A DNA stretch of 64,000 bases. Source: Ascidia mentula (lineage: Eukaryota > Chordata > Ascidiacea > Phlebobranchia > Ascidiidae). The stretch lies in contig OX387197.1 of assembly GCA_947561715.1 (NCBI GenBank), positions 25,384,266 through 25,448,265 on the forward strand. The letters run 5' to 3'. Shown here piece by piece: positions 817 to 61,454 of this stretch. The number at the start of each line of letters is the position of its first letter. Positions within the stretch are counted from its first letter, which is position 1. A model generated the notes under the pieces. It saw nothing but the letters and a program-made list of their open reading frames with translations. It was not told where the DNA came from and searched no databases. The translations under genes were made by a program, and so were the position numbers.

Positions 817-3601
817 ATGAACCTACATTTGGTGGCGTTATTAACACTCCTGCCAGTTGTCTTGTCTCAAACCTGGCACAAGTATGGGACAAGTGAATAT
901 TTGATTGGATCGAATAACGTTAGCAGCTATTCTGAAGCAGAAACTACATGTCAAGGATGGAAGGCTCATGTAGCCAACGTCAAATCAAAAGATACTTTCG
1001 ATTTTTTGGTGGCTAAGATTGGAACTCTCACAGGTAAGTCTTGTCTGATTCAAAATTTGATCATTGAATTGTTGGGTTGTTGAAAAAAGTAAATGCAAAT
1101 TTGTATTGCCTAATGCTCCACCAATTGTGTAAAATATCTTTAGAATCGGAACTCTTGAACAAGTCTTGTCTTCTCCGCAATTACGTTTTAGTATTGTGTT
1201 ACTGCGTTGGAAATTGGGGTAAATCCAAACCGGTGCTTCTGAAATTGAAATGAAAAATTAATCTGTCTGCGACATGATTAGATTATGATCAAGCAACATT
1301 AATAATGGTTGGATACAAATATTTGTAACAGTTTTTTTTGCAAAAATGGAACTGAATCGGGAACTAAATTAGTAACGCGTGTTTAATTTTAGACCCACCA
1401 TATTCCTACTTCATTGGAGCGGGACGAATTAATCGGACAGTTAACTTTGAGTGGACAGATGGAACAAGAGTTGTAAACGGACAGTGGAGGAAAGGGGGAG
1501 TATGGAATGAACCAAACAACTTCAATGAAAATGAAGATTGTGTGACAATGGGTTACCGCTATGTGTTCGACCCAAAGTTGCAATGGCTTGATATTCTATG
1601 CATGTATGAGTCGCGATACATTTGTGAAAGATTATTAGGTGGGATGCATGAGGTTGTAATAAAAAATATGTACAACAATTTACCTTTTCAGAATAAACGC
1701 AAACAAAGCCAATAGCAATCATATCAACTAACTTGCAGTAACGAACACTTGTCATCTCAACATTTCGTTTAAACAAAGAAACCTAAGAATACTTTTCTGG
1801 TAAATGTTGTCATGTGAACACTGTGTTCACGACAAAACATCGAATGTTCCTTTTCTGAAAATTGATTGTCGGTTATAATCACTCGATAATGGTTAATATT
1901 CTCGTAACATAAATATAGAAGTTTTTAATTTACGTAAAGGGTGGTGCAGAACATAGTAAACAAGTCACATTTGCATATATTTTTTGTTTCCTATTTCAGT
2001 CTGTACAAAATTACTCAAAATGTGTGTTAGTAAGTGCATGACGGTACCGTTTAGATTAAGTGAAAATTTCATTTTCTGAAACCAGTTTATCTATTGCCCG
2101 ACAAGCTTGGATACGCTGATCCAGCCCATTTCAGCAATGTTATGTTTAAAGTGGCCTTTGTTTGGTTTTAAAGTGCTTAGATGCCTAGGTGGTCTACAAT
2201 TGTGAGATTACTGATTGGAATTTCATGGAGTTACTGTAATTGATTACGTAATGATAAATGACCTATTTACAGTTTCAACGACGTTAAAACCAACTACAAC
2301 GTCCTCCGAAGCCACAACACGTCCGGTCAAAGAAACCACCAAAGGAACCACAAGATCAATTACTACAACAACCACTAGATCAGCCACCACAACTACCACA
2401 GCCACTACAACCATCTCCTTACCACCAAACACTAAAACCATCCGCAATGTCACCATAAATGGAATGAGAACCAGCAAAGCGACAGTTGGTAACGAATCCA
2501 TTTCGACTACGATGCTTTCATCCATACAGTTGAGCTCTTTTTCCCAACGTGAGTAATGAAACCTCTTCAAGCAACTTTAACACTTTATAGCCTACTTATC
2601 TAACACAGAAGTCCAAAACCATTTTATGGTCATTAACCTCATTTGCAAGAACGCACATAGCAACATATATCAAATAAATGTTCCGATAAAAATGAAATCA
2701 CAAACCTACATCCAACAAAAGAAGCAGCGACTGTTTTTTATATTCCCAATTAACATATTTTACTTATTCTACATTTAATTCTATTTACGCAAAACGTGAT
2801 TTCATCTAGCCAAGTGTCAATTGATTTATTGTGTTTCATGGTAGTGGTCACATCTAACACAAAAGTTTTATCTGTTTTTGTTCACAAAAGCATCGACAAA
2901 CAAGAGCAACAACCTGGCTATAATAATCGGTACAACCTTTGGAGTCATCGTAATAATTGGTATTATATGCTTGGTAGTCTGTACGACGTCACAACGGTGT
3001 AGAAAACATTGGTGAGTTCATTTTCTTTCAATAATTTTGATGAATGTGAAGTTATAATCCCTTTTCTTTTACACCAATGCGAAAATATTCTTGCAGAAGT
3101 TTAAATATCGGCTCTTCACAACGTTATTTTGTTAATGAATGTTCACATAACTTTAAATACTGTATTTCCTATTTCTGGTTGAATTTAATCTTATGCTTCT
3201 TAGCGCACAAAGAAATACACAAGATCTGAACGACCGAGTAGCTGGTAAGTAAAACGACCAACTGAAATAAAATGCAAATATAACTTAACTTCACCAACAA
3301 ACTACTTCAGAACTAGGAAACACAAAATTCTGTCAAAAAATCAGAATAATTGGTGATGAATTAAGAAAGTTGGATACTTGTCAATATTTTTTTATTTTTT
3401 AACATTTTTTGTTAACCAGGTGCTGATATCAACCAAGATCAAGTTTACATCAATGAGAATACTGCTCAGTATTACAACTTGCAACCATCCATAAACCATC
3501 CACCGGACCAACCAAATCATGGCGTCCACCATTATGAGGTCATCAAAGATCCTGTATACGTAAACACCAGAAACGAATCTCAATACATTAATTGTAATTA
3601 A
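817..3601 (+). CDS. CLR1: type I C-type lectin-like receptor, short (S) tail
   Basis: Exons 817-1033, 1393-1638, 2273-2548, 2891-3011, 3204-3244 and 3420-3601 give one frame of 360 residues. Residues 1-17 are a signal peptide (MNLHLVALLTLLPVVLS). Residues 18-154 are a CTLD with YFIGA (the WIGL equivalent), WNEPNN (EPN motif) and four cysteines in AETTC, EDC, LC and YIC. Residues 155-246 form a Thr/Ser stalk likely to be O-glycosylated. A hydrophobic helix (LAIIIG to VVC, about 255-277) has no charged residue, so adaptor pairing through the membrane is not indicated. The tail carries VYINEN, YYNLQ, YEVI, VYVNT and YINC, with YxN motifs of the Grb2-SH2 type. By family, a cell-surface carbohydrate or protein sensor; ligand unknown. 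Exon 2 and flanking introns are near-identical to CLR3, and the 3' half to CLR5, suggesting gene conversion. Confidence 0.88.
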
Positions 3602-3664
3602 ATTACTGTGCGCGGAGACTTCAGCAAAACGTTTGGAAACTGATTTTCTGCACATATTTGTCAT
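3602..3664. other. Short 3' flank of CLR1
   Basis: About 60 bp between the stop codon and foldback element FB1, highly similar after CLR1, 3, 5, 6 and 7. No AATAAA is visible here. Confidence 0.5.
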
Positions 3665-5073: not shown

Positions 5074-7815
5074 ATGAATCTACATTTGGTGGCATTATCA
5101 GTACTTTTGCCTGTTGTCTTGTCTCAAACCTGGCACAAGCATGGGACAAGTGAATATTTGATTGTGTCAAATAAAGTCAGCAATTATTCTGAAGCAGAAA
5201 CTACATGTCGAGGATGGAATGCTCATGTAGCGAACGTCAAAACAAATGATACTTTTGATTTTTTGGTGGCCGAGATCAGAAATCTAAGACTAGGAAGTAA
5301 GTCTTGTATGCTTTACAGTTTGATTATTGTGTTGTTGGATTGTTAAAAAAGGTAAATGCAAATTGATGTGGCATAATGCTATCACCCTTATTGAAAAATA
5401 TATTCAACATAAATGGAACTCTTGTACATAAGTCTTGTCTGGCTCGCAGTTAAAGTTTTACTGCTTTGAAAAATGGGGTAAATTCAAAGCTACTGAAACG
5501 AAAACAAAAAATTGTTCTGGCACCGACATTATTTGATTAAAGTCTACGAACATTATAAATGGTTGGATAGAAACATATGCGAAAGTTTTTGGCTGACATG
5601 GAACTGAATCTGGAATAAATTCGTAACACGTGTTCAATTTTAGATGAAACATATTCCTATTTCATTGGAGCGAGGCGAATTAATGGGACAGATAATTTTG
5701 AGTGGACAGATGGAACAAGAGTTGTAAACGGACTGTGGATGAAAGGGAGAGGAATAAATGGAACAAAATGGAATGAACCCAACAACATAAATCAAAGTGA
5801 AGATTGTGTGACAATGGGATATCTTTTCTATTTCAAACAAATATTGCGATGGTTTGATATTCCATGCATATATGAGTCGCGATACATTTGTGAAAGATTA
5901 TCAGGTGAGATGCTTGAAAAGGTTTTGAAAAAATATGTACAACCATTTGCATTTACAGGTAAACCTCTAAAATACTGCTGTAAAATTTGTGAATGACTTT
6001 CTTTAAAAAATGGAAATCATAATTTGCAGTAATGAATACTTCTCATCCAAATTTATTGATCTCATAAGAAACTGTAAATAAAACGTAGTCAAGCTATCCT
6101 CAACATTCCGTTTAAACATAGAAACCAAGAATAATTTTCTGGTAAAAGTTGTCAGGTGAACACTGTGTTCACGACAAAATATCAAATGTTTCTTGTCTTA
6201 CAATTCATAGTCGGTTGTAATCGCTCAATAATAATTAATATTGTGGCATCATAAATATAGAAGTTTTAAATTTACATGGAGAGTGGTACAGAACAAACTA
6301 AACTAGTCACGTTTGCATTTGCCATATATTTCCTGTTCTATATTCCTATAATCAGTATAAAATTACCCGCAAAGTGTGGTAGTCAATGTATGACGATACC
6401 GTTCAGACTAAGTTACAATTTCTGTGATATTCCAATTTTAATTTTCCCTAATTCTGTGTGCTTATCTTTGCCTCACAAGATTGGAAATGCTAGGCAATGT
6501 TTTGTTTGAAGTAGCCTTGATTCATTTTTAAGTGCTTGCCTAGTTGGGTGGTGTATAATTGTTGGATTTACTGCATTTCATGCAGTAATTGGTTGCATAA
6601 TGATATAAGACCTATTTACATGTTTCAACGACGTTTAAAGCAAATACAACGTCATCTGGAACCACTGAAAACATCCGCAATGTGACAACACTTGCAACGA
6701 AAACCAGCAAAGCGACAGTTGGTAACGAATATATGCCGACTACGAAGGTTTTAACCACACTTTTAAGCTCTTCTCACAAACGTAAGTTACAAAGAGCTCT
6801 TTTAATCAACTCTAACAATTTATACTAATCCAACACAGAGGTTCCCAACCTTTTTGTAGGCATGAACTCCATTTATAATTTGATATAAATTTGTGTATTA
6901 TTTTAACTCGTATTTGTGGCCTGTACGGGCAATGGTGTCGGTTTGAAACAACTATGAGGTTATATGTTCGTGTGTTAGAAACAAGTACATCAACACCTAT
7001 CAACGGCAATCTTCCAACTGTGGTTGGTTCGATTGTTGGTGTCATCGTCATAGTCGCTATTATCTGCATTGTTGTTTTTTGTGTGATCTCACAAAAGCGA
7101 AAGAATCAAAGGTAAGTCCCCTTCGTTCATAGATTATTGTTTGTCCAGAGTTTAAATCAGTGTAAATGGGTTAGCAATGCAAAGTGAAAAATGTGGGCTT
7201 GTACGACTGTTCACACGTGTGAAGTTTCATTATATTGTTTTAATGTAAGTGTATATAATACTCCAGTGTATTTAGGTCTGTGGCCCCAAGAGAGTTACAG
7301 GCAGTTGCCAACAGTGCACACGGTAAGCACATAAACCTAAACAAAAGCAATCATTTGAGTAATTTTATATTTGTAATGTGAAATACTTAACTGGCCAAAA
7401 TGTCATTCTAGCCGCAGACAACTACGAACCAGAAGAAACATACGCTGAAACTCCAACCGAGAACCACGTCAGCCCGCAACAAACAGTAACCTATGAAGAC
7501 GTTACTCATTCTCAATACAATCTCTATGACGATGCTACAAATCCGGAACTAGGAACCAGTGATCGCGTAAACAACTGCGATGTCTACAGCACGGTGCAAC
7601 GAGACGGAGACGACCAGGATGCTCACAATCAACTACAACCTGCTGGTTTGGAGGCATCGGGAAACGGATCTTTGCTTGAGGTAGACGCCAACGACCGAAA
7701 TACTTACGACCGATTGCACAACATTGAACATATGAGTGGGAATACCACTGCCTCCACCTCTGCCGATCAACTTTACGCCGTGGTCAGAAAACCGAAGAAA
7801 GAACTGCGTCCTTGA
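5074..7815 (+). CDS. CLR2: type I C-type lectin-like receptor, long (L) tail
   Basis: Exons 5074-5296, 5644-5904, about 6623-6781, 6979-7111, 7276-7322 and 7412-7815 give 408 residues in one frame. Signal peptide 1-17; CTLD with YFIGA, an INGTK insertion before WNEPNN (adding NGT and NQS N-glycosylation sequons), EDC, PC and YIC. The stalk is short (53 residues). The helix (VVGSIVGVIVIVAIICIVVFCVI) is followed by a basic KRKNQR stop-transfer. The L tail of about 135 residues has tyrosines in TYAETP, TYEDV, YNLYDD, VYSTV, YDRL and LYAVV. The ITAM-like pair is half lost here because YNQL reads HNQL. Oddity: the stalk acceptor reads CATG at 6619-6622 where the paralogues have ACAG, so canonical splicing at that site is lost. 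The protein model assumes a nearby non-AG site or an error; otherwise this allele is damaged. Confidence 0.75.
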
Positions 7816-9619: not shown

Positions 9620-12353
9620 ATGAACCTACATTTGGTAGCGTTATCAGCACTATTGCCTGTTGTCTTGTCTCAAACCTGGTACAAGTATGGGACAAGTGAA
9701 TATTTGATTGGGTCAAGAGCGGATAAAGTTAGTAGCTATTCTGAAGCAGAAACTACATGTCAAGGATGGAACGCTCATGTAGCCAATGTCAAAACAAAAG
9801 ATATTTTCGATTTTTTGGTGGCTAAGATTGGAAATCTCACACGTAAGTCTTGTCTGGTTCACAGTTTGATCATTGAATTGTTGGGTTGTTGAAAAAAGTA
9901 AATGCAAATTTGTATTGCCTAATGCTTCACCATTTGTGTAAAATATCTTTAGAATCGGAACTCTTGAACAAGTCTTGTCTTCTCCGCAATTACGTTTTAG
10001 TATTGTGTTACTGCGTTGGAAATTGGGGTAAATCCAAACCGGGGCTTCTGAAATTGAAATGAAAAATTAATCTGTCTGCGACATGATTAGATTATGATCA
10101 AGGAACATTAATAATGGTTGGATACAAATATTTGTAACAGTTTTTTTGCAAAAATGGAACTGAATCGGGAACTAAATTAGTAACGCGTGTTGAATTTTAG
10201 ACTCACCATATTCCTACTTCATTGGAGCGAGACAAATTAATGGGACAAATAATTTTGAGTGGACAGACGGAACAAGAGTTGTGAACGGACAGTGGAGGAA
10301 AGGAGGAGGATGGAATGAACCAAATAACTTCAATGAAAATTGTGTTACAATGGGATATCGCTATGTGTTCGACCCAAAGTTGCAATGGGTTGATATTCAA
10401 TGCATGTATGAGTCGCGATACATTTGTGAAAAATTATTAGGTGGGATGCTTGAGGTTGTAATAAAAAATATGTACAACAATTTACCTTTTCAGAATAAAC
10501 GCAAACAAAGCCAATAGCAATCATATCAACTAACTTGCAGTAACGAACACTTGTCATCTCAAAATTTCGTTTCAACAAAGAAACCTAAGAATTTTTTTCT
10601 GATAATAGTTGTCATGTGAACACTGTGTTCACGACATAACATCGAATGTTCCTTTTCTGGAAATTGATTGTCGGCTATAATCACTCGATAATGGTTAATA
10701 TTCTCGTAACATAAAAAATATAAGAGTTTTAAATTTACGTGAAGGGTGGTACAGAACATAGTAAACAAGTCACATTTGCATATATTTTTTGTTTCCTATT
10801 TCAGTCTGTACATTACTCAAAAATGTGTGTTAGTAAGTGCATGACAGTACCGTTTAGATTAAGTTAAAATGTCATTTTCTGAATCCAGTTTATCTATTGC
10901 CCGACAAGCTGGGAAACGCTGAGCCAGCCCATTTCAGCGATGTTATGTTTAAAGTGGCCTTTGTTTTCTTTTTAAGTGCTTAGCTGCTTGCATGGTGTGC
11001 AATTGTGAGATTACTGTTTGGCAATTCATGGAGTTACTGTAATTGGTTACATAATGATAGAAGACCTGTTCACAGTTTCAACGACGTTAAAAGCAACTAC
11101 AACGTCCTCTGGAGCCACAACACGCCCCGTCAAAGAAACCACCAAAGGAACCATCAGATCAATTACTACAACAACCACTAGATCAGCCACCACAACTACC
11201 ACAGCCACTACATCCATATCCTTACCACCAAACACTAAAACCATCCGCAATGTCACCATAAATGGAATGAGAACCAGCAGAGCGACAGTTGGCAACGAAT
11301 CCATTTCGACTACGATGCCTTCATCCATACAGTTGAGCTCTTTTTCCCAACGTGGGTAATGAAACCTCTTCAAGCAACTTTAACATTTTATAGCCTACTT
11401 ATCTAACACAGAAGTCCAAAACCTTTTTATGGCCTTTAACCTCATTTGCAAGAACGCACATAGCAACATATATCAAATAAATGTTCTGATAAAGATGAAA
11501 TCACAAACCTACATCCAACAAACGAAGCAGTTGTTTATATTCCCAATTAACATATTCTACTTATTCTACCTTTAATTCTATTTACGCAAAACGTGATTAT
11601 CTAGCCAAGTGTCAATTCATTTATTGTGTTTCATAGTAGTGGTCACATTTAACTCAAAAATTTTTTATCTGTTTTTGTTCACAAAAGCATCGACAAAGAA
11701 AATCAAGAACCTAAATATAACAATTGGTTCGGTTTTTGGAGTCATCGTAATAATTGGTATTATATGCGCCTCAGTCTGTATGACGTCACAACGGTGTAGA
11801 AAACATTGGTAAGTTCATTTTCTTTCAATGATTTTGATGAATGTGAAGTTATAATCCCCCTTTTCTTTTATACCAATGCGAAAATATTCTTGCAGAAGTT
11901 TAAATATCGGCTCTTCACAACGTTATTTTGTTAATGAATGTTTACATAACTTTAAATACTGTATTTCCTATTTCTGGTTGAATTTAATCTTATGCTTCTT
12001 AGCGCACAAAGAAATACACAAGATCTGAACGCCCGAGTAGCTGGTAAGTAAAACGACCAACTGAAATAAAATGCAAATATAACTTCACCAACTAGCTACT
12101 TCAGAACTAAGAAACACGAAATAGTAACAAAAATAATATTTTGGGTATTTTTGACATTTTTTGTTGACCAGATGCTGACTTCAAGCAAGATCAAGTTTAC
12201 ATCAATGAGAATACTGCTCAGTATTACAACTTGCAACCATCAATAAACCATCCTCAGGACCAACCAAATCATGGCGTCCACCATTATGAGGTCATCAAAG
12301 ATCCTGTATACGTTAACACCAGAAACGAATCTCAATACATTAATTGTAATTAA
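9620..12353 (+). CDS. CLR3: type I C-type lectin-like receptor, short (S) tail
   Basis: Exons 9620-9842, 10201-10440, 11076-11351, 11688-11808, 12003-12043 and 12172-12353 sum to 1,083 nt (360 residues plus stop). Domain order is as in CLR1. In the CTLD the loop after WNEPNN is two residues shorter (NENC instead of NENEDC), so the spacing to the second cysteine is altered. Stalk of 92 residues, nearly all Thr/Ser runs; the stalk donor is GTGGGT rather than GTGAGT, still GT. Transmembrane helix NITIGSVFGVIVIIGIICASVC. Tail DADFKQDQVYINEN to the terminal QYINCN. The region 9893-10580 (intron 1, exon 2, start of intron 2) is almost identical to 1086-1780 of CLR1, whereas exon 1 is more distinct: a mosaic consistent with gene conversion. 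Confidence 0.87.
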
Positions 12354-14557: not shown

Positions 14558-17291
14558 ATGAATCTACATCTGGTGGCGTTACTGGCACTTTTGCCTGCTG
14601 TCTTGTCTCAAACTTGGCACAAGCATGGGACAAGTGAATATTTGATTGGGTCAAGATCGAACAAAGTTAGCAGCTATTCCGAAGCAGAAACTGCATGTCA
14701 AGGATGGAACGCTAATGTAGTCAACGTCAAAACAAAAGATACTTATGTTTTTTTGTTGGATAAGATTGATAGTTTCCAAAGTAAGTCTTATCTGGTTAAC
14801 AGTTTGATTATTGTTTGTTGGGATTGTTAAAAATGTTAAATGCAAGCTTATGTTGCCTTATAGCCTACTGTTAACATTATTGTGAAATATCCCCAAAGTT
14901 GGATAAATTCAAACCGGATATTCCGAAACTGAAACTAAAAATGAATCTTGAACTGACATTATTTGATTTGGATCTACTAATAAGTAATGGTTGGATAAAA
15001 ACATTTGTGAAAGTTTTATGCTAAAATGGGATTGAATCTGGAACTAAATTAGTAACGCGTGTTCAATTCTAGACTTACCTTATTCCTATTTCATTGGAGC
15101 GAGACGAATTAATGGGACAGATAACTTTCAGTGGACAGATGGAACAAGAGTTATGGACGGACAGTGGAGGAAAGGGGGAGGATGGAATGAACCAAACGAC
15201 TTTAATGGAAATGAAGATTGTGTGACAATGGGATATCGCTATGGATTCGACCCATTGTTGCAATGGGTTGATGTTAAATGCGAATATGAGTCGCGATACA
15301 TCTGTGAAAGATCATCAGGTGGGTTGCTTAAGAAAATAATAAAGAAAAATATGTACAACCATTTACATTTTCAGAGAAAACGCCTATAAAGGCAATGGCA
15401 ATCATATCAACCGACTACTTGCAGTAATGAACACTTCTCATTCAAATTAATCCTAAATTTAATGTATTCATAAAAAAATATATAAAAACGCAGTCAAGAT
15501 GTCCTCAATATTTCGTTTCAACAAAGAAACCGAAGAATACTTTTCTGCTAATAGTTGTCATGTGAACACTGTCTTAGCGACAACACATCGAATGTTCCTT
15601 TTCTAAACATTCAATGTCGGTTATAATCGTTCGATAATAATTAATCTTGTGACAACAAAAATAGAGAAGTTTTAAATTTACGTGAAGAGTTTTTCAGAAC
15701 GTAGTATACAAGTTATGTTTGCATTTATTTTTTGGTTTCCTATTTCAGTCTCTTCAAAATTACCCAAAAGTTCAGTGCAAGACTATATCATTTAAACTAA
15801 CTTAAAACTTTTATTTTCACGAATCCTGTATGTTTATCTATTGCCCGACAATCTTGAAAACGCTGAGCCTCGCCATTTCAGCAATGTTATGTTTGTGGCA
15901 TTTGATTTCTTTTTGAGTGTTTGCCTACTTGGGTGGTGTATAATTGTGAACTTTTACTGTCTGGAATTTTATGGAGTAATAAGTTTCATAATGATAGATG
16001 GCATATTCACAGTTTCAACGACGTTGAAAGCAACTACAAAGTCCTCTAGAGCCACAACACGTACCGCCAAAGAAACCACCACAAGAACCACAAGATCTGT
16101 TACTACAACAACCACTAGATCAGCCACCACAACCATCACCTCTCCACTTAACACTAAAACCATCCGCAATGTCACCACAAATGGAATGAAAACCAGCAGA
16201 GCGACAGTCGGTAACGAATCTATGCCGGCTACGAAGGTTTCAACCACACTTTTAAGCTCTGCTCACAGACGTAAGTTTTAAACTTGCCAAGCTACTTTAA
16301 TCAATACTGTATACTTATCTAACACAGAGATTCAAAACATTTTTGTAGTCATGAACTCCATTTATACTTCATTATTAATTTGACTCGTATGTGTGGCCTG
16401 TACAGGCAATATTGTCGGTTTGAAACAAACATGACGTGATATGTCCGTGTGTTAGAATCAAGTACACCAAAAACTGACATCGGCTATATATTCACTGTGG
16501 TTGGTTCGATTGTTGGCTTCATCGTCATAATCGCTATTATCTGCATTGTTGTTTTCTGTGTGATCTCACAAAAGCGAAAGAATCAAAGGTAAGTCCCCTT
16601 CGTTCATAGATTGTTTGTCCAGAGTTTAAATCAGTGTAAATGGGTTAGCAATGCGAAGTGACCACTGTAGGCTTGTACGACTGTTTACACGTGTGAAGTT
16701 TCATTATATTGTTTTAGTGTAAGTATATATAATACTCCAGTGTATTTAGGTCTGTGGCCTCAAGAGATTTACAGGCAGTTGTCAACAATGTATATGGTAA
16801 GCACATAAAGAAAATCAATCATTTTGGTAAACGTGACATAAAATGTGAAATACTTAACTTGGAGAAATATCATTGCAGCCACAGACAACTACGAACCAGA
16901 AGAAACATGCGCCGAAACTCCAACCGAAACCCACGTCAGCCCGCAACACGCAGTGACCTATGAGGACGTTACTCATTCTCAATACAATCTCTATGACGTT
17001 GCCACAAACCCGGAACAAGCAGACTGTGATCGCGTAAACAATGGCGATGTCTACAGCACGGTGCAACGCGACGGAGACGACCAGGATACTTACAATCAAC
17101 TACAGTTGCATCAACCTGCTGGTTTGAAGGCATCGGGAAACGTATATTTGCCTGAGGTAGACGCCAATGACCGAAATACTTACGACCAGTTAAACAACAT
17201 CGAACATATGACAGGGAATACCATTGCCTCCACCTCTGCTGATCAACTTTACACAGCGGTCAGGAAACCCAACACAAAACAACGTACTTGA
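14558..17291 (+). CDS. CLR4: type I C-type lectin-like receptor, long (L) tail
   Basis: Exons 14558-14780, 15073-15318, 16013-16270, 16456-16588, 16750-16796 and 16879-17291 sum to 1,320 nt (439 residues). Signal peptide MNLHLVALLALLPAVLS; CTLD with YFIGA, WNEPND, NEDC, KC and YIC; 86-residue Thr-rich stalk; helix TVVGSIVGFIVIIAIICIVVFCVI with a KRKNQR anchor. The L tail contains TYEDV, YNLYDV, then the ITAM-like pair YSTVQRDGDDQDTYNQL, then YDQL and LYTAV. ITAM or hemITAM-type signalling through tandem-SH2 kinases is the family analogy; it is inferred, not shown. All splice sites are canonical. It follows an S gene, forming the 3S-4L pair. Confidence 0.88.
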
Positions 17292-29367: not shown

Positions 29368-29466
29368 TTTGAAGGCATCGGGAAACGGACCTTTACGTTA
29401 GGTAGACACCAACGACCGAAGTACTTACGACCGGTTGAACAACGTTGAATATATGAGTGGAATAAT
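29368..29466 (+). pseudogene. Scar of a deleted long-tail receptor (exon 6 piece)
   Basis: Matches the middle of the L tail exon (residues like KASGNGP..., then DTNDRSTYDRLNNVE and MSG), as in CLR12 and CLR14. No other exon of that gene remains. It shows that CLR7 (S) was once followed by an L gene, removed by a deletion with one end inside FB1. Confidence 0.75.
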
Positions 29467-36900: not shown

Positions 36901-37429
36901 CCAACAATGCAGACGGTAAGCACATAAACCTCAACGAATGCAATTATTTGTGCAAACCAAAATATGTGATGTCAAATACTTAACTGGGTAAAATTTCATT
37001 GCAGCCGCAGACAACTACGAACCAGAAGAAACATACGCCGAAACTCCAACCGAGAACCACGTCAGCTCGCAACACACAGTAACCTATGAAGACGTTACTC
37101 ATTTTCAATACAATCTCTATGACGATGCTACAATACCGGAACTAGCAAGCGGTTTAGGAACCAGTGATCGCGTAAACAATGGCGATGTCTACAGCACGGT
37201 GCAACGCGACGGAGACGACCAGGATACTTACAATCAACTACAGTTGCATCAACCTGCTTGTTTGGAGGCATCGGAAAACGGACCTTTGCCTGAGGTAGAC
37301 GTCAACGACCGAAATACTAACGACCGATTGCACAACATTGAACATATGAGTGGGAATACCACTGCCTCCACCTCTGCCGATCAACTTTACTCAGTGGTCA
37401 CAAAACCCAAGAAAAAACTGCGTCCTTGA
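33988..37429 (+). CDS. CLR9: type I C-type lectin-like receptor, long (L) tail
   Basis: Exons 33988-34216, 35167-35427, 36146-36346, 36574-36706, 36869-36915 and 37005-37429 sum to 1,296 nt (431 residues). CTLD with INGTKWNEPNN, NQSEDC, PC and YICQ. Two cysteines are added relative to all paralogues: NNVCSYSEA in exon 1 and DGTCVVNGQ in exon 2. Stalk 67 residues; helix SIVVGSIVGVIVIIVIICIVVFCVI. The L tail has TYAETP, TYEDV, YNLYDD, YSTVQRDGDDQDTYNQL and LYSVV; the YDRL site is changed to NDRL. Intron 1 is unusually long (950 bp): it holds a duplicated exon-1/intron-1 fragment (about 34321-34420, like CLR5) and a solo LTR. Confidence 0.88.
34540..35030. mobile_element. Solo LTR in CLR9 intron 1
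   Basis: A 491-bp insert beginning TGCAGC and ending GCTACA (TG..CA ends, imperfect short inverted termini), flanked by the 4-bp direct repeat ATCT (34536-34539 and 35031-35034). The paralogous intron of CLR5 (near 18670) shows the uninterrupted site with one ATCT. No internal retroelement sequence is present, so it fits an LTR left by recombination. Family not assignable by eye; it is younger than the CLR5/CLR9 split. Confidence 0.65.
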
Positions 37430-47656: not shown

Positions 47657-50600
47657 ATGAATACATATTTGCTGTTGTACTTAACACTACTGCCTGTTGT
47701 CTTCTCCCAAACCTGGCACAAGCATGGGACAAGTGAATATTTAATTTTTACAAGAGCGAATAAAGTCAACAATTATTTTGAAGCAGAAACTGTATGTCAA
47801 CGATGGAACGCTCATGTCGCCTACGTCAAAACAAACAATACTTTTGATTTTTTAGTGGCCAAGATTGGAACTCTCACACGTGAGCTCTGTTTACTACAAA
47901 GTTTGACCAATTTTACCAGAAAAACACTTAAATGGTCAATTTGTCTTACTATTACACTTTACTTTTATTCGTAACAAAAGCTGGTAACGACACTCATAAT
48001 GCAGACGTATGTTCTGATATGTACAACCTAACATGTACGATATTTAGTGCATTATACGAAAAAATTTCAAACAAAGCTAAATCTCGGCAAATTTTCGCTC
48101 ACGAACAACGGTTTTTGTGAGTAGCTAATAAAGATGCATGGATTTTCTCTAAAGCTGTTTCATAACTAATGAAAACCATTTTTTCAGAACCACCTTATTC
48201 CTACTTCATTGGAGCAAGGCGAATTAATGAGACAGATAACTTTGAGTGGACAGATGGAACAAGAGTTGAAAATGGACAGTGGAGAGTGAGTCAAGGATGG
48301 AATGAACCCTGTAACCATAATAATGAGGACTGTGTGACAATGGGTACCAGTGATGTGGTTGATTCAAATTTTGAATGGCTTGATGTTCCATGCGAATATG
48401 AGTCGCGATACATTTGTGAAAGATCATCAGGTGAAATGTTGAAGATATTAAACCATAATCATTTACAAGTTTTCCTAACCGTCTGTGAACCTAAGGTACC
48501 TTAAATAATTTCAAGTTTAAGGTGGTGTGCAATCACTGTGCTCGCTGCAATCATTAATTATTTTAAAATCAATATGTCTGTAAGTTTAAAAAAATTTCCA
48601 GACAAATATTAAAAATTTATATTCTAGTGAATTGATTCTGGGAATCATAAAAATTTTTTATTTTGTTGGTAAGCTGCAGACAGGGTGTGCACACGCACTG
48701 TTTCGACCTGTGAGGTCTCATCAGTGCAGCTGTTGCAGTGGCACTGTGCTAGCTTTTACACTAGCAGGCACACTAGATTCCACTTTGTGGTACCTGTCCG
48801 GTCAACGTCGATCTGTTGGGTAACCTATACTGAGTACCAAACAACAGAGACGAACCACTGTGGAGCGCACTATGGCCAAACGCTTGGTAACCGATCTGCT
48901 TGGTAACCGATAGCGCTAAAGGCAAAACACCAATGCGATATATGTGCAAAAAAAGCCATAAAAATAATATTGATAAGCTGCAGACAGGGTGTGTACAAGC
49001 ACTGTTTCGACCTGTGAGGTGTTTCGACCTGTGAGGTCTAATGTTTGGTACTCAGTATAGGTTACCCAACAGATCGACGTTGACCGGACAGGTACCACAA
49101 AGTGGAATCTAGTGTGCCTGCTAGTGTAAAAGCTAGCACAGTGCCACTGCAACAGCTGCACTGATGAGACCTCACAGGTCGAAACAGTGCGTGTACACAG
49201 TACACACCCTGTCTGCAGCTTACCAATATTATTATGGCTTTTTTTGCACATATATTTTTATTTTGTATTATTACTTTTTTCGATCCATGCTCTGTTAGTT
49301 TATTACCACGTAAGATTATTTGCGGTGATGGGGCTCATTTCCGAAAATAGGCACATACACGAACTTGACAACAATTAGTGGCGCTGGAAATGGATAATTC
49401 TTAAATATCAACTAACATTCAAATTTGATGCTTTTTGTGAGCTTCTAATGCTGGTATAATTAAAGCCAGGTTTTACTTCTACCCGCCTCATTAATACATA
49501 CATTTTGTATCAACAGCATTTCGACGCACCACGACCTCTACCAAAAGTGCTACGGCCAGTGCCAAAAGTGCCACAAGCAGTATCCGAGGTAACAAAACCT
49601 GTACCCGAAGTACCACAACTACTACCGGAAGTATCACTACCAGTAGCATAGTTACCACAACCAGTACCAGAGGTAAAACAAAATGTACCAGTACCAGACG
49701 TAGCGCAAGCCATTTTTCTTCTTCTAAGAACAAAAAGTGTAAAATTTGTGAAGTACATACATAAAGCACTTGGTTCAAAACAGGATTAACCTGGTATTTT
49801 TTAGGGAAATATATTTTTCCTTGTTTCAAAACTTGTGCTTTGTGTTAGTTTTATTACGAAACGATCAATAATCTCCAAGTCAGAATCTGCAGTCTACGGT
49901 TAAGATTCTTCTTTTCCACACTGAAAGTCATTTATGATCTCAAAGTGATTATACAAAAAGCGCGTAACAAATTAGTATTTTACAAATATATTCATCGATT
50001 GGTTTGCTTTTTTTTAAGAATTCAACGAATTAAAATAATTTAGGTAAGAAAATCTAAAGATACAAAGACGTCATTTGAATTTTGTTTCAGTCACAAATCC
50101 ACCAGGAAAGAGCAATCTTCCCGTTGTAATAGGTTCGATTTTAAGTGTCGTCATAATCGCTTTTATTTGCATTGTTATTTACAATGTGACGTCACGAAAG
50201 CGCAAAGCGCTCAGGTGAGAATTGTTTGCCATCCACTCCAGGTAAACTATATTTTTTATCGCCAAACGATCTTTTTTTATGTACTTTCGTTTTAAGTTGG
50301 ATTAAATAAACAAAGTTTAAACAGTATAGACACTTACCACTTACAAATATCCACGTTTTTATATGCTCATTTGTGTTCAAAAGTTGCCACTCAGTGTGCG
50401 CAACCACTGTCGCATATATATTAAATTGCGTGATTTCGTGACCTTATAATTTTATCAAAACATATGTCTTAAAGGTCAGAACGTTCAAGTAACTTGCAAA
50501 CAGTTGGTGGCAGTGAAGCAGGAGGTGGGTAGTAGGCATAAAAGGTGTCGAACAGTGAATTAATCGATTTAAAAAACTGTAGTTTTGTGTTCTTCCACTA

Positions 50601-51091
50601 ATCTATTATACATTTATTTAAACTATAAAACATTATACGACTATCGCCGTACATGGGTATAAACTGTAACTGAAGTTGCTTTCAATTCCGAAGAGGACAG
50701 TATCTTTATACTTACATCAGGCGATGCGGCAGCTGACAACTCCATTGGCAACATCTATGACGTAACAAGGCATCCTCAATACAATGCTTATGACGTTGCA
50801 AGGGACCCGGAACAACCGCCAGCTTTTGGAAGTAGTGATCGCGTAAATAATTGCGATGTCTACAGCACGGTGCAACGCGACGGAGACGACCAGGATACTT
50901 ACAATCAACTACAACCTGCTGGTTTGAAGGAATCGGGAAACGGAGCTTTGCCTGAGGTAGACACCAACGACCGAAATACTTACGACCGGTTGAACAACGT
51001 TAAACATATGAGTGGGAATACCACTGCCTCCACCTCTGCCGATCAACTTTACTCAGTGGTCACAAAACCCAATAAAAGCCAGACCCGTTAA
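47657..51091 (+). CDS. CLR12: type I C-type lectin-like receptor, L tail, EPC instead of EPN
   Basis: Exons 47657-47879, 48188-48430, 49517-49738, 50091-50214, 50475-50524 and 50721-51091 sum to 1,233 nt (410 residues). The CTLD reads QGWNEPCNHNNEDC: the Asn of the EPN sugar/calcium motif is Cys, and the segment before the third cysteine is TSDVVDSNFEWLDVPC. The 74-residue stalk is an expanded series of TSTR/TSAK-like repeats, with two cysteines. Its donor is weak (GTAAAA at 49739), chosen because it alone keeps phase 1. Helix LPVVIGSILSVVIIAFICIVIYNV. Tail with IYDVT, YNAYDV, YSTVQRDGDDQDTYNQL, YDRL and LYSVV. Intron 2 holds the FB2 palindrome. AATAAA overlaps the last codons (about 51070). 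Confidence 0.85.
48668..49254. mobile_element. Foldback element FB2, copy a (CLR12 intron 2)
   Basis: Complex palindrome: arm 48668-48842 (GGTAAGCTGCAGACAGGG... TACTGAGTACCAAAC) returns inverted at about 49048-49224. A second pair, ATATGTGCAAAAAAAGCC (about 48939) and GGCTTTTTTTGCACATAT (about 49234), encloses the right half. An 18-bp tandem duplication TGTTTCGACCTGTGAGGT lies near 49001-49037. Reading frames recur on both strands only because of the symmetry; no transposase seen. Confidence 0.75.
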
Positions 51092-52444: not shown

Positions 52445-54503
52445 ATAAATAGATATTTGCTGTTGTTATTAACATTACTACCTGTTGCCTGGCCCCAAAC
52501 ATGGCACAAATATGACACAATTGAATATTTGATTGGGTCAGGAGCGCAAAAAGTCAACAATTATTCAGAAGCAGAAACTACATGTCAAGGATGGAAGGCT
52601 CATGTAGCCAACGTCAAAACAAAAGATATTTTTGATTTTTTGGTTGGCAGGATTGGAACTCTCACACGTAAGCATTGTCTAATACAAAGGTTGGCTGCAG
52701 TGTTGTTACGTTGCAAACGTTGCAAAGTTTAACAAACTTTTGGCGAGGCAACAATATTTCACAATCGTAACAATGAACATAAAGTTTTCCTATTAATGTG
52801 CTTGCGTAATATTCATTAAGGTCTGACCATAGTACAGCCGTAAGACCGTAGGCCCATCGCTAAAATGGGTACATGGCTTTTATTTAAGGTTGAAAACCAC
52901 TGTTTTAGAACAACCTTATTCCTATTTCATTGGAGCGAGGCGAATTACTGGGACAGATAACTTTGAGTGGACAGATGGAACAAGACTTGTGAACGGGCAG
53001 TGGAGAGTGGGATGGACAAAGAATGTGTTCTGGAATGAACCAAACAACGTCCAAGAAGAATGTGTTACGATTGGGTATCGCTGTGATTTTGACCCAAATT
53101 TGCAATGGCTTGATGTTCCATGCGTATATGAGTCACGATACATTTGTGAAAGATTATCAGGTAGGACGGTTGACATGGTAAACCAAAATCGCTTCAAAAA
53201 CATTTGCAACTGCAAAATTTATGATTAGTGGCTCAGTTGCCAAAACGATGTAAATCCTTTTAACGTGCCTCTGAATTTGGCAGTAACAAAATTACCCAAC
53301 CAGGAAACAAATTGCTGAATGCGAAAATTTATTTCTGGAAAGGTCCTTGGCAATTACTTTTGTAGCAACATATCTGGAAGCTTTTCGATTGCTTAAACCT
53401 ACACCAGATGTGCAGTGCTTGAATCAACATTTTAAACACAATTTTAGTGTAAGAGTTCTAATAACTACAAAATTTACATGAAAGAAATGCAGGTCTTTGC
53501 TGCATTAACCAAGTTAGGTTGAGCTTAAATTGAAGCACTAGCAAACATTGCCCGATGCCAATGTCTTTGAAAAGTCCCCTGACGTGGCCCATGGGGTTAT
53601 AGGATCGGAGGAGCAAACTTATAGGTGTAGCATACAGTTTGATCACTGAAAAAATGTAGAAATTTAAATTGCACCATCACAAACCTTCCTACCTAAGCTT
53701 AGTTAAGAAGTGAGGCATAGGATTTGGAATTCTCAACAGAACAAATACATTTAGCAAGTGTTTATAATAATAAAAAAAAAACAATGCAAGCATCATTTTG
53801 CAGATTATATATTGCAGATTGAGAATGTTATTGTTCTGGACCATAACCGTAATTTACCACTTCTTCTGTTCAATTGTAAATGCTCATCTTCAACGCATTT
53901 TTGTAACTTTTCAGCGACAATTCCAAGGGCAGATAACCATAGCATGATCATAGCGATTGGTTCCACTGTTGGTGGCATCGCAACAATTCTTATTGTCTGC
54001 ATTGTAGTGTTCTTTGTGCTGTCAAAAAGAAGAAAACAAAGGGCGTAAGTTTATTTTGTTGTTTTAGAATATGTGATCATTTAAAAACATGTTTTCCTTC
54101 AGCATTACACTTTTTTGAGATATTTTATTGTAAAATGTTTTATCACACTGTTCCAAATAAATCAAATCAAATCAAATCATCAAAATCAAATCATGTTTAT
54201 TTCGCGAAAAAAAGCAACTACGCGTATGAACAATATACAAAGAAACAAAATCGCATGGGCACCGAGAAAACCATAAAGGTTATCGAGTCAAGGGCTCAAT
54301 ATAAGCGGACAATACATGAAAACATACGAGATATTTTAAGATTCAATTCATATATTCTCATGCTTTTTAGGGCTGGACGAATTGCAAGTGATGTGGATGG
54401 CCAAGCAGTTCGTAAGTTAAAACACAAACTAACAGAAACACCAATATTACCCATTACTTGTAACACAAGGATTTCATCGTTTCCAGATAGCAGTTCAAAA
54501 TAA
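52445..54503 (+). CDS. CLR13: receptor lacking stalk and signalling tail (possible decoy)
   Basis: Exons 52445-52667, 52909-53160, 53915-54044 and 54371-54411, with a possible tiny terminal exon 54487-54503. The usual start is ATA (52445-52447); the only in-frame ATG upstream is 52358, adding 29 residues before the signal sequence. The CTLD is intact in frame, with WTKNVFWNEPNN, EEC, PC and YIC, plus an extra cysteine (GYRCDF). The stalk exon is deleted (junction near 53455), but joining exon 2 to the transmembrane exon keeps frame because the missing exon was phase 1-1. The S-tail exon 6 is also deleted (near 54510), so the protein would end in HSSSK or read through the intron, with no tyrosine motif. 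Either a pseudogene or a signal-less membrane lectin. Confidence 0.65.
54150..54195. repeat. AATCA-type microsatellite
   Basis: Short run of AAATC/AATCA units 3' of the CLR13 transmembrane exon; the single unit is visible in CLR11 and CLR15. Confidence 0.7.
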
Positions 54504-55231: not shown

Positions 55232-57818
55232 ATGAATACATATTTGCTTTTGTTATTAACACTACTACCTGTTGCCTGGTCCCAAACCTGGCACCAGCAT
55301 GGGACAAGTGAATATTTTACTGGGTCGAATAACGTTAGCAGCTATTCTGAAGCGGAAACTGCATGTCAAGGATGGAATGCCCATGTAGCCAACGTCAAAA
55401 CAAAAGGAGTTTTTGATTTTTTGGTTGGCAGGATTGGAAATCTCACACGTAAGCATTGTCTAATACAAGGTTGACTGTAGTGTTATTAAGCAGCAAAGCC
55501 AATGCTGCACAAACTTCTTGTGGCGTAATCATAGCAACGAACATAAAGTTTTTCCTGACGATTTACTTGCGTAGTATTTATCAGGGTTCGGCCAAACAAC
55601 AGACGTAAAAAAGGATGTTACTTTTTTATGCGTCTTTGTACATAAAGGTTGAAAACCACTCTTTCAGATCCACCCTATTCCTACTTCATTGGAGCGAGAC
55701 GAATTACTGGGACAGATAACTTTCAGTGGACAGATGACACAAGTGTTGTAAACGGACAGTGGAGGAAAGGAGGAGGATGGAATGAACCAAACAACCACAA
55801 TCACCTTGAAGATTGTGTTACAATGGGATATCGCTATGTGTTCGACCCATGGTTGCAATGGGTCGATGTTCCGTGCATATATGTGTCACGAGTCATTTGT
55901 GAAAGATTATTGGGTAAGATGGACAAACCAAATTCATACATTAGTTTTTTTTTTGCAGAAGAGCCTCAAGAATAATTTAAAAGATATTTGGTTTGACTTT
56001 TACAAAAATCGATGGCGCTCGAAATAACCAATTCTGAAATATAAACTCAAGCCGTTGCTCCTTAATTGTTGCAACATATAGCCTTGATTTGGTGCAACTA
56101 GTTTATCACAAACAATTCGCCACAACTTAATAACAGGAATATATTTCTACCCGCCCACAACAATATGTATTTTCCATCAGTCAGATTAACAACAACAACA
56201 ACTTCTTCTCGGCACACCACAACTAGTACCAGAAATACCACAACAATTAACGAGTATTGGCAAATTAAAATAATGTTTCACAAATATTTTCGTCGATTGG
56301 TTCGCAATATGCCCAAGCTTGATTCTATTTCGTCGTAAAAACCTAACTGTGCGAAATCATGGCCTAGATTCTGCCACATTTAGGGAACCGGGTTAGGACA
56401 TAAGTCGATATTTCAGGAATGGCCATAGCTTTATAATGAATATTCTCTAGTAGATACATCGTCCAAAACAACTGCTTTTCGACGCACCACAACTAGTGCC
56501 AGAAATACCTCAACCAGTACCACAAGTCATTCTTCTAATTGTAAGAAGAAAAAGTATACATTAAAATATTTGATCCAAAACTGATTACATAAAAGTGGTG
56601 TAAAAATAAATAACTCAGTGAACATTCTGGCGAATCAGATGAAGTATTGGAAAATTAAAAAGATATCTCACAAACAATTTTGTAGGTTGGTCATAATAAC
56701 GCAGAAGTGAACTTAATATTGGTCATAATATTTATGTTAAGAAATCTAAAGAAACAAAAAATGTCATTTTAATGTTATTTTAGTCACAAATCCACCAGGA
56801 AAAAGCATTCTGCCAGTAGTGATAGTTTCGATGTTTGGTGTCGTCATAATCGCTATTATTTGCATTGTTATTTACCATGTGACATCACAAAAGCGAAAAG
56901 CGCAGAGGTAAGAATATTTTACCCTCAACTCTACGTACACTCTGCTTATCGTCAAACAACTTTTGATGCATTTTTTTCTTTAAAGTAGGATTAATAAAAA
57001 CAATATTCAAACAATACTACACATATTTCATTCACAAAACATCCACGTTTGCTTATGCTTATTTTGCAGTTTTTTTTTCTCATCAAATTTTCTTTCAAAG
57101 TTGCCACTCAGTGTGCGCAACCACTGTCGCATTATATTTCATTGCATAATTTTGTCACCTTATAATTTTATAAAAACATATGTCTCAAAGGTCAGAACGT
57201 TCAAGAAACTTGCCAACATTGGTTGGCAGTGAAGCAGGAGGTGGGTTGTAGGCATAAAAGTGTTGAACGTGAATTAATCGAATTGAAAAAACTGTGGTGT
57301 TTTATGTCATGGATTTCCACTCATCTGCAAAAAGTTAAATTAACGATGACAGCTTACGCAACTTATCCACTAATTGGCCTACGGTTACTGATCCTTTTAA
57401 ATCCGAAGACGGTCTTATCGTTATATTGACAGCAGGCACTGTGGCAGCTGACAACTCCATTGGCAACATCTATGACGTCCCAAGGCATCCTCAATACAAT
57501 GTTTATGACGTTGCAAGGGACCCGGAACAACCGCCAACTTTTGGAAGTAGTGATCGCGTAAACAATGGCGATGCCTACAGCACGGTGCAACGCCACGGAG
57601 ACGACCAGGATACTTACAATCAACTACACTTGCATCAACCTGCTGGTTTGGAGGCACCGAGAAACGAATCATTGCCTGAAATAGACACCAACAACCGAAA
57701 TACTTACGACCGGTTGAACAACGTTGAACATATGAGTGGGAATACCACTGACTCAAACTCTGCCGATTCAACTTTATACACAGCGGCCAGGAAACTCAAT
57801 AAAAACCAGACCCGTTAA
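55232..57818 (+). CDS. CLR14: type I C-type lectin-like receptor, long (L) tail
   Basis: Exons 55232-55448, 55668-55913, 56454-56540, 56784-56907, 57191-57240 and 57433-57818 sum to 1,110 nt (369 residues). Paralogue of CLR10. CTLD with YFIGA, GGGWNEPNN, LEDC, PC and VIC (the conserved YIC tyrosine and nearby Glu are Val). Stalk 29 residues. A second open stalk-like stretch starts at 56181 after CATCAG but has no donor in the right phase. Helix LPVVIVSMFGVVIIAIICIVIYHV. Tail with IYDVP, YNVYDV, YSTVQRHGDDQDTYNQL and YDRL; the final LYTAV site reads LYTAA, losing the +3 hydrophobic residue. The exon-6 acceptor is again CAGCAG (57430-57435). AATAAA (about 57798) overlaps the last codons. Confidence 0.87.
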
Positions 57819-58909: not shown

Positions 58910-61454
58910 ATGAATAGATATTTGCTGTTGTTATTAACATTACTACCTCTTGCCTGGCCCCAAACCTGGCACAAATATGACACAAGTGAATATTTGATTG
59001 GGTCAAGAGCGCAAAAAGTCAACAATTATCCTGAAGCAGAAACTGCATGTCAAGGATGGAAGGCTCATGTGACCTACGTCAAAACAAAAGATATTTTTGA
59101 TTTTTTGGTTGGCAGGATTGGAAATCTCACACGTAAGCATTGTCTAATACAAAGGTTGGCTGCAGTGTTGTTACGTTGCAAACGTTGCAAAGTTTAACAA
59201 ACTTTTGGCGAGGCAACAATATTTGACAATCGTAACAATGAATATCAAGTTTTCCTATTAATTTGCTTGCGTAATATTCATTGAGTTTTGACCACAGTAC
59301 AGCCGCAAGACCGTAGGCCCATCGCTAAAATGGTTACATGGCTTTTATTTAAAATTGAAAACCAATGTTTCAGAACCACCTTATTCCTATTTCATTGGAG
59401 CGAGGCGAATTACTGGGACAGATAACTTTGAGTGGACAGATGGAACAAGTGTTGTGAACGGGCAGTGGAGAGTGGGATGGACGAAGAATGTGTTCTGGAA
59501 AGAACCAAACAACGTCCAAGAAGAATGTGTGACAATGGGTTACAGCTATGTGTTCGACCCAAAGTTGCAATGGTTTGATGTTCCGTGCGTATATGAGTCA
59601 CGATACATTTGTGAAAGATTATCAGGTAGGACGGTTGACATGGTAAACCAAAATCGTTTTAAAAACATTTGCTACTGCAAAATTTATAATTAGTGACTCA
59701 GTTGCCAAAACGATGTAAATCCTTTTAACGTGCCTCTGAATTTGGCAGAAAAAAATTACCCAACCAGGAAACAAATTGCTGAAAGCGAAAATTTATTTCT
59801 GGAAAGGTCCTTGGCAATTCCTTATGTAGCACAATATCTGAAACCTTTTCGATTGCTTAAACCTACTTCAACTGTGCAGTGCTTGAATCAACATTTTAAA
59901 CACGATTTTAGTGTAAGAATGTTATCTATTTTTCCGGTTTCTTCGATACAAAAGCATCATCTGTACAACAAGTAAGCTTACCACCAACACAAACAAGAAT
60001 GGCGACAACCACTATGTTTCTAGTTAACACTGTCACATCATTTGCAACGAAAACCTTTGAAAATGAATCAAACCCATCTGACAAACTTACAACAGTTCTT
60101 GGGTTGATTTCTCCAAAACGTGAGTACGAAACCCAACTAACGACTTTAAACCTGTTCACCGTAAATTATCGAAACTATTTTAAAATTTAAATGTTGGATC
60201 ATACACAACGTTCTAATAACTACAAAATTTACATAAGAGAAATGCAGGTCCTTGCTACATTAACCGAGTTAGGTTGAGCTTAAGTTGAAGCACTTAGCAA
60301 ACATTGCCCGATGCGAATGTCTTTGAAAAGTCCCCACGTGGTTATAGGATCGGAGGAGCAAACTTATAGGTGTAGCGTACTGTTTGATCACTGAAAAATG
60401 TCCAAATGTAAATTGCACCATCACAAAACCTTCCTACCTAAGCTTAGTTAAGAAGTCGTAGGATTTGGAATTCTCCACAGAATCAAATACATTTAGCAAG
60501 TGTTTATCAAAAAAAACAATGCAAGCATCATTTCGCAGATAATATACTGCAGCTTGAGAATGTTATGGTTCTGGACCATAACCGTAATTTACCACTTATT
60601 CTGTTCAATTGTAAATGCTCAACTTTAACGCATTTTTGTAACTTTTCAGCGACGATTCCACGGGCAGATAACAACAGCATGATCATAGCGATTGGTTCCA
60701 CTGTCGGTGTCATCGCAACAATTCTTATCGTCTGCATTGTAGTGTTCTTTGTGATGTCACAAAGAAGAAACAAAGGGAGTAAGTTTATTTGTTGTTTTAG
60801 AATACGTGATAATTTGAAAGCTTGTTTTCCTTCAGCATTACACTTTTTGTGATATTTTATTGTAAAAAGTTTCACTACATGGTTCCATATAATTCAAATC
60901 AAATCATGTTTATTTTGCGAAAAAAACAACTACGCATATGAACAATATACAAAGAAATAAAATCGCATGGGCACCGATAAAACCATAAAGGTTATCGAGT
61001 CAAGCGCTCAATATAAGCGGACAATACATTAAAACATACAAGATATTTTAAAATTTAATTGATTCTCATGCTTTTTAGGGCTGGCCGAATTGCACGTGAT
61101 CTGGATGGCCAAGCAGTGCGTAAGTTAAAACACAAACACCAATATTACCCATTACTTATGACACAAGGATTTCATCGTTTCCAGATCCCAGTTCAAAATA
61201 TTTAAATTTGTGACCAGAGGGCAAGAGTGTGTCTACAAGTAAACACATTTTAACTTTCTTTCTGTTGACCAGCTGCTGATATCCAGCAAGATCAAGTTTA
61301 CATCAATGACAATACTGCCCAGTACTACAACTTACAACCACCCAGAAATCACCCAACGGACCAACCAAATCATGACGCCCACCATTACGAGGTCATCAAA
61401 CACCCTGTATACGTGAACACCAGAAATGAATTTCAATACATTAATTGTTATTAA
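58910..61454 (+). CDS. CLR15: type I C-type lectin-like receptor, short (S) tail, frame conflict at exon 5
   Basis: Exons 58910-59132, 59374-59625, 59955-60119, 60650-60778, 61079-61119 and 61273-61454. Signal peptide MNRYLLLLLTLLPLAWP; CTLD with RVGWTKNVFWKEPNN, EEC, PC and YIC; 55-residue stalk (ASSVQQVSLPPTQTRM...); helix MIIAIGSTVGVIATILIVCIVVFFVM. The transmembrane exon is 129 nt, one base less than in CLR13 (RRNKG against RRKQR), so including the 41-nt exon 5 puts exon 6 out of frame and drops all tyrosines. Skipping exon 5 restores frame (951 nt, 316 residues) and keeps VYIND, YYNLQ, YEVI, VYVNT and YINCY. Exon 5 still has good splice sites, so which form is made is open. CLR11 shares the same short exon 4. 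Confidence 0.75.

Follow-up and report, generated by a model that had tools for sequence, protein, structure and literature searches.

Paired receptors combine similar ectodomains with different cytoplasmic outputs, according to the available excerpt of PMC3533184. Among tunicates, the accessible part of PMC12065747 presents fester and FcoR of Botryllus as a multigene system of paired genes, with Ig and sushi ectodomains and with tails carrying Yxx(I/L/V) sites as a hemi- immunoreceptor tyrosine-based activation motif (hemITAM) or an immunoreceptor tyrosine-based inhibitory motif (ITIM). The accessible part of PMC5465252 covers an ITAM glycoprotein from haemocytes of Halocynthia roretzi and the ascidian C-type-lectin receptor CiCD94-1, described as type II; both are treated there as single proteins, and that part mentions no two-tail array. 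Here we describe C-type-lectin receptor genes that form a row on chromosome 1 of the ascidian Ascidia mentula (Tunicata, Phlebobranchia); part of this row fills the analysed stretch of 64,000 nucleotides, hereafter the window (G000:C1:25384266-25448265, in a genome of 195.8 Mb). The COX1 gene of the genome (C79) gives a normal protein when AGA/AGG are translated as glycine, as in the ascidian code (table 13), whereas tables 4 and 5 would place Arg or Ser at these conserved Gly positions. As far as these partial texts allow a comparison, the row resembles fester/FcoR as a tunicate multigene family with Tyr-motif tails; unlike the Ig-plus-sushi receptor and co-receptor pair of Botryllus, it places Lectin_C heads of the same type on two tails, and unlike the Halocynthia and CiCD94-1 proteins it is an array. 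No account of it was found among the titles and abstract openings listed by a literature search, and Ascidia mentula combined with lectin returned no papers. We consider it probable, judging from the sequence, that these genes encode tandem type I receptors with a single C-type-lectin domain (CTLD), in which shared, variable 5' heads have been recombined onto two 3' cassettes that would report through two pathways.

Six exons fit each unit of the array: E1 (signal peptide, called by eye, and first half of the CTLD), E2 (second half), a Thr-rich stem, a transmembrane (TM) exon, a juxtamembrane (JM) exon and the tail. The ectodomain of unit 1 is a Lectin_C domain (PF00059; 60.3 bits against a gathering cut-off of 22.6) whose best PDB match is a mannose receptor (E 1.6e-14). 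No other Pfam family appeared in the one ectodomain scanned, and scans of the stem and of two tail open reading frames (ORFs) returned no family at all. Mapping with tblastn and six exon queries was extended beyond the window to 270 kb (C1:25.36-25.63 Mb). This stretch holds 65 units opened by an E1 exon, 53 of them with a tail (22 short, S, and 31 long, L); all run head to tail, and the six queries gave no match on the minus strand. Genome-wide, the S tail matched at least 25 places (DNA query) and the L tail at least 43 (protein query), some of them partial; all but two and three, respectively, lie at C1:25.37-25.66 Mb. Two outposts, at C71:12.18 Mb and C1:7.00 Mb, each consist of an S gene followed by an L gene on one strand, and the tail sets of 24 S and 33 L used below combine them with the 270-kb array. 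The S copy of the C71 outpost is interrupted by a stop in E2, and its tail is divided between two frames. That at C1:7.00 Mb (L032, reverse strand) has a distant ectodomain (46-48% identity, HQPTN replacing WNEPNN), which suggests that the S cassette is older than the CTLD family of the array or has moved beyond it.

S and L are two genuine, distinct tail classes. YxN sites occur in all 24 S tails and in 2 of the 33 L tails; an ITAM-like pair, Yxx[ILV]x6-12Yxx[ILV], is found in 27/33 L tails and 1/24 S tails; YDxP occurs in six L tails and no S tail, and YxxM in none of either set. The YxN motifs that the first-pass annotation, a model's reading of the letters alone, had reported for short tails (YINE, YYNL, YVNT and YINC) lie at 3446-3595. 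In the 18 of 24 S tails without a stop, three or four such sites are present each, above residue shuffling (median P 0.004, P at most 0.03). In 25 of the 29 L tails without a stop, Yxx[LIV] sites are more frequent than after shuffling (P<0.05), and YSTV-x9-YNQL or a near variant is intact in six of the seven L tails of the window, unit 2 excepted, as in 27 of 33 overall. Tyr columns are more conserved than the remaining columns in L tails (0.93 vs 0.80, P 0.008), with a non-significant difference in S tails (0.93 vs 0.84, P 0.07). A common origin of the two tails, which looked likely by eye from YEVIKHPVY and YDVPRHPQY, is not claimed here, as profile comparison gave a probability of 1% (E 0.041, 11 columns).

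The units of the window, in window numbering, are the following.
817..3601, plus strand: unit 1, S tail; E1 817-1033, E2 1393-1638, Thr-rich stem ~2250-2550, TM 2890-3010, JM 3204-3244, tail until the stop at 3601
5074..7815, plus strand: unit 2, L tail; recombinant, 5' half S-like until ~5904, then L cassette; second ITAM-like Tyr of the tail gone (AHNQL)
9620..12353, plus strand: unit 3, S tail; JM 12003-12043
14558..17291, plus strand: unit 4, L tail; JM 16741-16796
18274..20842, plus strand: unit 5, S tail; JM 20445-20485
22308..24745, plus strand: unit 6, S tail; JM 24353-24393
26211..28934, plus strand: unit 7, S tail; JM 28537-28577
29369..29461, plus strand: L-tail relic containing a stop; query residues 85-115, ~600 bp 3' of the start of the unit 7 S tail
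30277..33009, plus strand: unit 8, L tail; E2 interrupted by a stop, ATG not found; recombinant, S-like 5' half from 29013 to ~31013
33988..37429, plus strand: unit 9, L tail; JM 36860-36915, preceded by AA, not AG
40591..43121, plus strand: unit 10, L-B tail with YDVP; first unit of subfamily B
44445..46923, plus strand: unit 11, S-B tail; frameshifts in E1 and tail
47657..51091, plus strand: unit 12, L-B tail
52481..54411, plus strand: unit 13, S-type, tail exon absent; JM 54371-54411 retained
55232..57818, plus strand: unit 14, L-B tail with YDVP
58910..61454, plus strand: unit 15, S-B tail; TM exon lacks 1 bp relative to other S-B copies
62188..64000, plus strand: unit 16, L; E1 and E2 alone in the window, TM and tail (65136-65483) past its end

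Units 8, 11, 13 and 15 look broken. In unit 13 the tail exon falls within a deletion of ~253 bp relative to unit 15, position 54515 matching both 61213 and 61466.

S and L genes share their ectodomains, with up to 95% protein identity across tail classes (unit 2 L vs unit 6 S); in the subfamily-A segments, which were set by position, mean identity is 82.9% for S-S, 77.9% for L-L and 78.9% for S-L comparisons. At the DNA level, unit 5 (S) and unit 4 (L) can be aligned on their promoter side as far as 19937/16356, and the alignment resumes at 21574/17551; the interval (~19938-21573 in unit 5, ~16357-17550 in unit 4) is occupied by two dissimilar cassettes. The tree of E2 (60 rows) needs 10 changes of tail label, at least four of them forced by strong branches, against a shuffled mean of 17.4, and that of E1 (65 rows) likewise 10, at least five forced, against ~17.5. 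Tail labels are clustered on the ectodomain trees, yet far from a single origin. The TM tree (43 rows) has two label changes, one of them due to u83407, where two decayed units were merged by the unit rule. In constrained trees restricted to tailed array units outside subfamily C (45 rows for E2, 47 for E1), one enforced S clade costs 159 (E2, 10 changes) and 198 (E1, 9 changes) log-likelihood units, and the approximately unbiased (AU) test rejects it (p 1e-47 and 3e-88). The histories of CTLD exons and tails, which the first-pass annotation had wished to see compared as phylogenies, thus disagree instead of being identical. Its statement that both subfamilies attach both tails to similar ectodomains holds across the array; within the window both S-B copies are impaired.

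Profiles of identity along the genes, taken in steps of 200 bp, locate the head-tail switch close to where CTLD exon 2 ends in three L genes whose 5' halves are S-like. Between 3904 and its E2 donor at 5904, unit 2 (L) matches unit 7 (S) with 92-99% identity, after which the two cannot be aligned; its identity to unit 9 (L) is 78-92% before the donor, where aligned, and 70-94% after it. For unit 8 (L), identity to u196179 (S) is 88-97% before the donor and 78-85% or unalignable after it, as against 78-90% and then 88-98% to unit 4 (L). The third gene, u209840 (L), is 88-95% identical to u200350 (S) before the donor (~210673) and 79-85% or unalignable beyond, the corresponding values with unit 4 being 81-88% and 85-95%. 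The TM, JM and tail exons move as a 3' cassette, while the promoter region and the CTLD exons are swapped between S and L genes. Each gene combines a family-wide 5' part (promoter region, signal peptide and two CTLD exons), most variable at the CTLD loops, with one of two 3' cassettes (TM, JM exon and tail), and a cassette remains intact when the 5' part is swapped. As the 5' part and the spacer align within a subfamily and the cassette does not, misaligned homologous recombination would resolve at this boundary and re-pair heads and tails. The S-like block of unit 2 includes 5' spacer, so that unequal crossing-over would fit better than a short conversion tract.

The heads themselves vary at defined positions. 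Ca2+-dependent sugar-binding CTLDs have EPN or QPD together with WND. Among the 59 E2 copies EPN is present in 51 and WND in none, the latter site reading WLD (22), WVD (16), WFD (8), WHD (5) or WTD (4), plus others. The most variable ectodomain columns include those shortly after EPN, the stretch preceding WxD and the x of WxD, which we take to be ligand-contact loops.

The order of tails along 817-61454 is S L S L S S S (L-tail relic at 29369) L L | L S L (tailless unit at 52481) L S, exactly as the first-pass annotation had listed it, including the scar and the lost tail. It had further seen in this order an alternation of S and L and an ancestral S-L unit. The two tails are indeed intermingled along the row, but a random order would give about as many runs: nine runs in the 14 tailed units of the window, with 8.0 expected (P 0.38 for at least that many), and 26 runs in the 53 tailed units of the 270 kb, with 26.7 expected. 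Nor are neighbours especially alike, the ectodomains of the 18 neighbouring S-L pairs being 77.0% identical as compared with 76.3% for random same-subfamily S-L pairs (P 0.30); the difference obtained without subfamily control (77.0 vs 73.7, P 0.014) is taken as a subfamily effect. With random order and ordinary neighbours, the ancestral pair is not supported. The two outposts, both S then L, lend weak support to a moving S-L pair (n=2). The random order and the ordinary neighbours also speak for a different account, in which S and L are two old lineages of a drifting birth-and-death array, without any functional pairing, and recombination has done no more than homogenise their ectodomains. 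It overlaps with our preferred explanation in its evolutionary part, and the many broken units agree with it, as does a pN/pS of ~0.8 or more among close copies, the S tail excepted. Against it stand the pooled dN/dS of 0.44-0.62 (E1 0.44, E2 0.46, TM 0.55, S tail 0.44, L tail 0.62), the conserved Tyr columns of the L tails and the separate motif classes. On balance we find it rather doubtful.

The exon structure bears on a further possibility. Direct splicing from TM to tail was rejected on account of incompatible phases: most TM exons end in phase 2, whereas a tail requires phase 1, and this predicts a missing exon with a length of 2 mod 3. The JM exon fits. It is a conserved block bordered by AG and GT, 41 nt long in S-A and S-B, 56 nt in L-A and 50 nt in L-B, and was missed by the first-pass annotation. 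Where a TM has been mapped, TM, JM and tail join in an open frame in 18 of 21 S units and 14 of 17 L units. Two of the 18 open S joins, those of units 11 and 15, need a different acceptor and frame, since the 1-bp shorter TM exons of both units put the standard join out of frame; neither S-B gene of the window has the standard open join as a result, and the array copies u143023 and u241175 do. Under a simple joining rule, 42 of 52 tailed units have an open E1+E2 join. The E1/E2 and JM/tail introns are both in phase 1, so cross-unit joins could stay in frame; moreover, all mapped exons of the 270 kb run head to tail on one strand, and L-tail relics similar to that at 29369 lie behind three more S tails, making four in total. 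Neighbouring S and L tails might on these grounds serve as alternative terminal exons through read-through splicing between units. We hold this to be very improbable: of the 53 tailed units, 52 come with an E1 and E2 of their own, 50 of the 52 with E2 have a JM exon of their own, and a TM is mapped in 38 of 52. A scan for poly(A) signals was uninformative, being positive in 6 of 22 S tails and 21 of 31 L tails, compared with 66% of background windows.

Candidate readers of both tails are encoded in the same genome, where an SH2 search returned 47 exon matches. The phosphorylated S tail, with three or four YxN sites, would dock Grb2, which we rate as likely, and could drive Ras/MAPK or co-stimulatory signalling. 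A Grb2 gene lies at C1:23.37 Mb; its first 42-residue SH2 exon alone scores 53.3 bits to SHP2 and 52.1 to GRB2, the assignment being settled by the later exon (best match GRB2, E 3e-20, 37 of 47 residues as in human), which retains KYFLWVVKF with the EF1 Trp, presumably the residue that selects YxN. The phosphorylated L tail (YxxV-x9-YxxL plus further Yxx-hydrophobic sites) could plausibly dock SHP2, a Syk-type kinase with tandem SH2 domains, or both; the YDVP that some B copies of this tail have might dock Crk. An SHP2 SH2 pair (E 1e-87) and a Crk/CrkL SH2 domain (E 2.5e-41) are present, together with exons assigned by eye to CSK, SHC, SRC, SHIP and DAPP1. Two unbroken ORFs with 2xSH2 and a tyrosine kinase, 623 and 599 aa as fetched and with open 3' ends, represent the Syk type; a PDB search with the first placed an EGFR-labelled chain on top, followed by full-length SYK and ZAP-70. 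These two ORFs (L033 and L034) are neighbours at C67:7.964 and 7.977 Mb and are intronless across the fetched stretches; they may have originated as a retrocopy that was then duplicated. The predicted outcome is a repertoire of similar binding heads reporting through two pathways. We infer surface expression, phosphorylation, shared ligands and cooperation of the outputs from the sequence, and the same applies to any sign given to the S and L outputs.

With such readers at hand, the receptors could alternatively form activating and inhibitory pairs, L being inhibitory through ITIM-like sites and SHP2 and S activating through Grb2, or the reverse. Shared ectodomains and an encoded SHP2 agree with this, and the ITIM consensus ([IVLS]xYxx[LV] in the accessible part of PMC10008955, tested here with [ILV] as final residue) occurs somewhere in 16 of 33 L and 4 of 24 S tails, in the form VTYEDV in the four L-A copies listed. 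None of the five listed copies of L-B and L-C has it, however, and the ITAM-like pair is present in 27 of the 33 L tails. The TM segments mostly lack charged residues for an adaptor; by eye, charges were seen just in isolated copies (E in u196179, R in u200350). As L-A tails hold both the ITAM-like pair and VTYEDV, the sign of the output cannot be read from their sequence. We regard activating and inhibitory pairs as unlikely.

Several observations weigh against heads recombined onto two signalling cassettes, our preferred reading. The L-tail pair, with V at +3 and a spacing of x9, deviates from the ITAM consensus Yxx[LI]x6-8Yxx[LI] (accessible part of PMC10008955), and for these two reasons none of the 33 L tails matches the canonical motif. 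Of the 23 stop-free L tails with the pair, just 7 show it above shuffling at P<0.05 when it is taken alone (median P 0.06); the L genes of both outposts and four array copies have lost it. The exon trees rest on 210-246 columns and contain many weak forks. Furthermore, u217547, itself an L gene, is also 85-90% identical to u209840 in the 5' half, which makes u209840 a weaker case than units 2 and 8. Close copies have a higher pN/pS (0.52-1.14; ~0.8 for ectodomain and L tail, 1.1 for TM, 0.5 for the S tail), so some may drift or decay, and several units of the window are broken.

Some further features of the region were recorded. Copies u100640, u128515, u238655 and u244428 (window numbering), the last at the edge of the 270-kb stretch, have mapped E1 and E2 exons and neither TM nor tail with the tblastn queries; they may be truncated, soluble or decayed forms, or their exons may have been missed by the queries. 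A genome-wide search for relatives of the CTLD exons gave 389 candidates, 150 of which were scored, and further big clusters lie at C1 22.4-22.95, 26.0-26.4 and 27.3-27.6 Mb and at C71 17.6-18.6 Mb; the S-tail DNA query and the L-tail protein query had no match listed at these clusters, whose tails were not inspected. Between units 9 and 10, reverse-transcriptase-like fragments at 38065-38550 (SFDVVSLFTNVP, FAIGSPFS; two ORFs without Pfam match) resemble Penelope-like elements, and 37402-39116 is repeated with 97% identity at 163360-165067, close to u159951. At 39307-40021 an L-type remnant stands by itself, containing a JM-like ORF as well as VDNYEPE and no mapped CTLD exon; four further array copies of 39307-39860 or longer share 89-93% identity. 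Pfam found nothing above cut-off in ten additional long ORFs on both strands of the window, and an Rfam scan gave no match.

The first-pass annotation had likened these genes to paired receptors. The parallel holds for ectodomains shared across tails, as seen in the 95% identity of units 2 and 6 and in the trees; the short tail with a charged TM is missing. Like the vertebrate paired receptors Ly49, NKRP1, KIR, SIRP and CD300, the Ascidia genes are clustered in an array and have similar ectodomains and differing tails. The activating member of such pairs has a short tail and a charged TM residue for an adaptor. In the ascidian array, by contrast, both classes have long Tyr-rich tails and neither combines a short tail with a charged TM, and the apparent contrast in output is between Grb2 and Syk/SHP2, not between on and off. 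The array also differs in belonging to an invertebrate chordate and in its type I layout with the CTLD first: the order is signal peptide, CTLD, stem, TM, JM and tail, unlike the type II lectin receptors of the NK complex, in which the tail comes first and the CTLD last. Grb2-docking tails with YxN sites are known from the adaptor LAT and from co-stimulators of the CD28 type, whose ectodomains are unrelated.

Tentatively, the array might be viewed as a germline plug-and-socket system, with one diversifying pool of heads and two fixed bodies, a Grb2 dock and a dock for a tandem-SH2 Syk kinase or SHP2, acting as partner pathways. If so, the same recognition event would be divided over two pathways, probably with similar targets and different messages into the cell, and the paired-receptor problem would have been solved independently outside the vertebrates, with the pathways as partners and not as an on/off switch. 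Paired receptors are usually explained by host-pathogen conflict in vertebrates, and here the same logic would be met in their sister group. The array offers a natural test of whether the splitting of one head over two outputs evolves repeatedly, and of how it is maintained in tandem.

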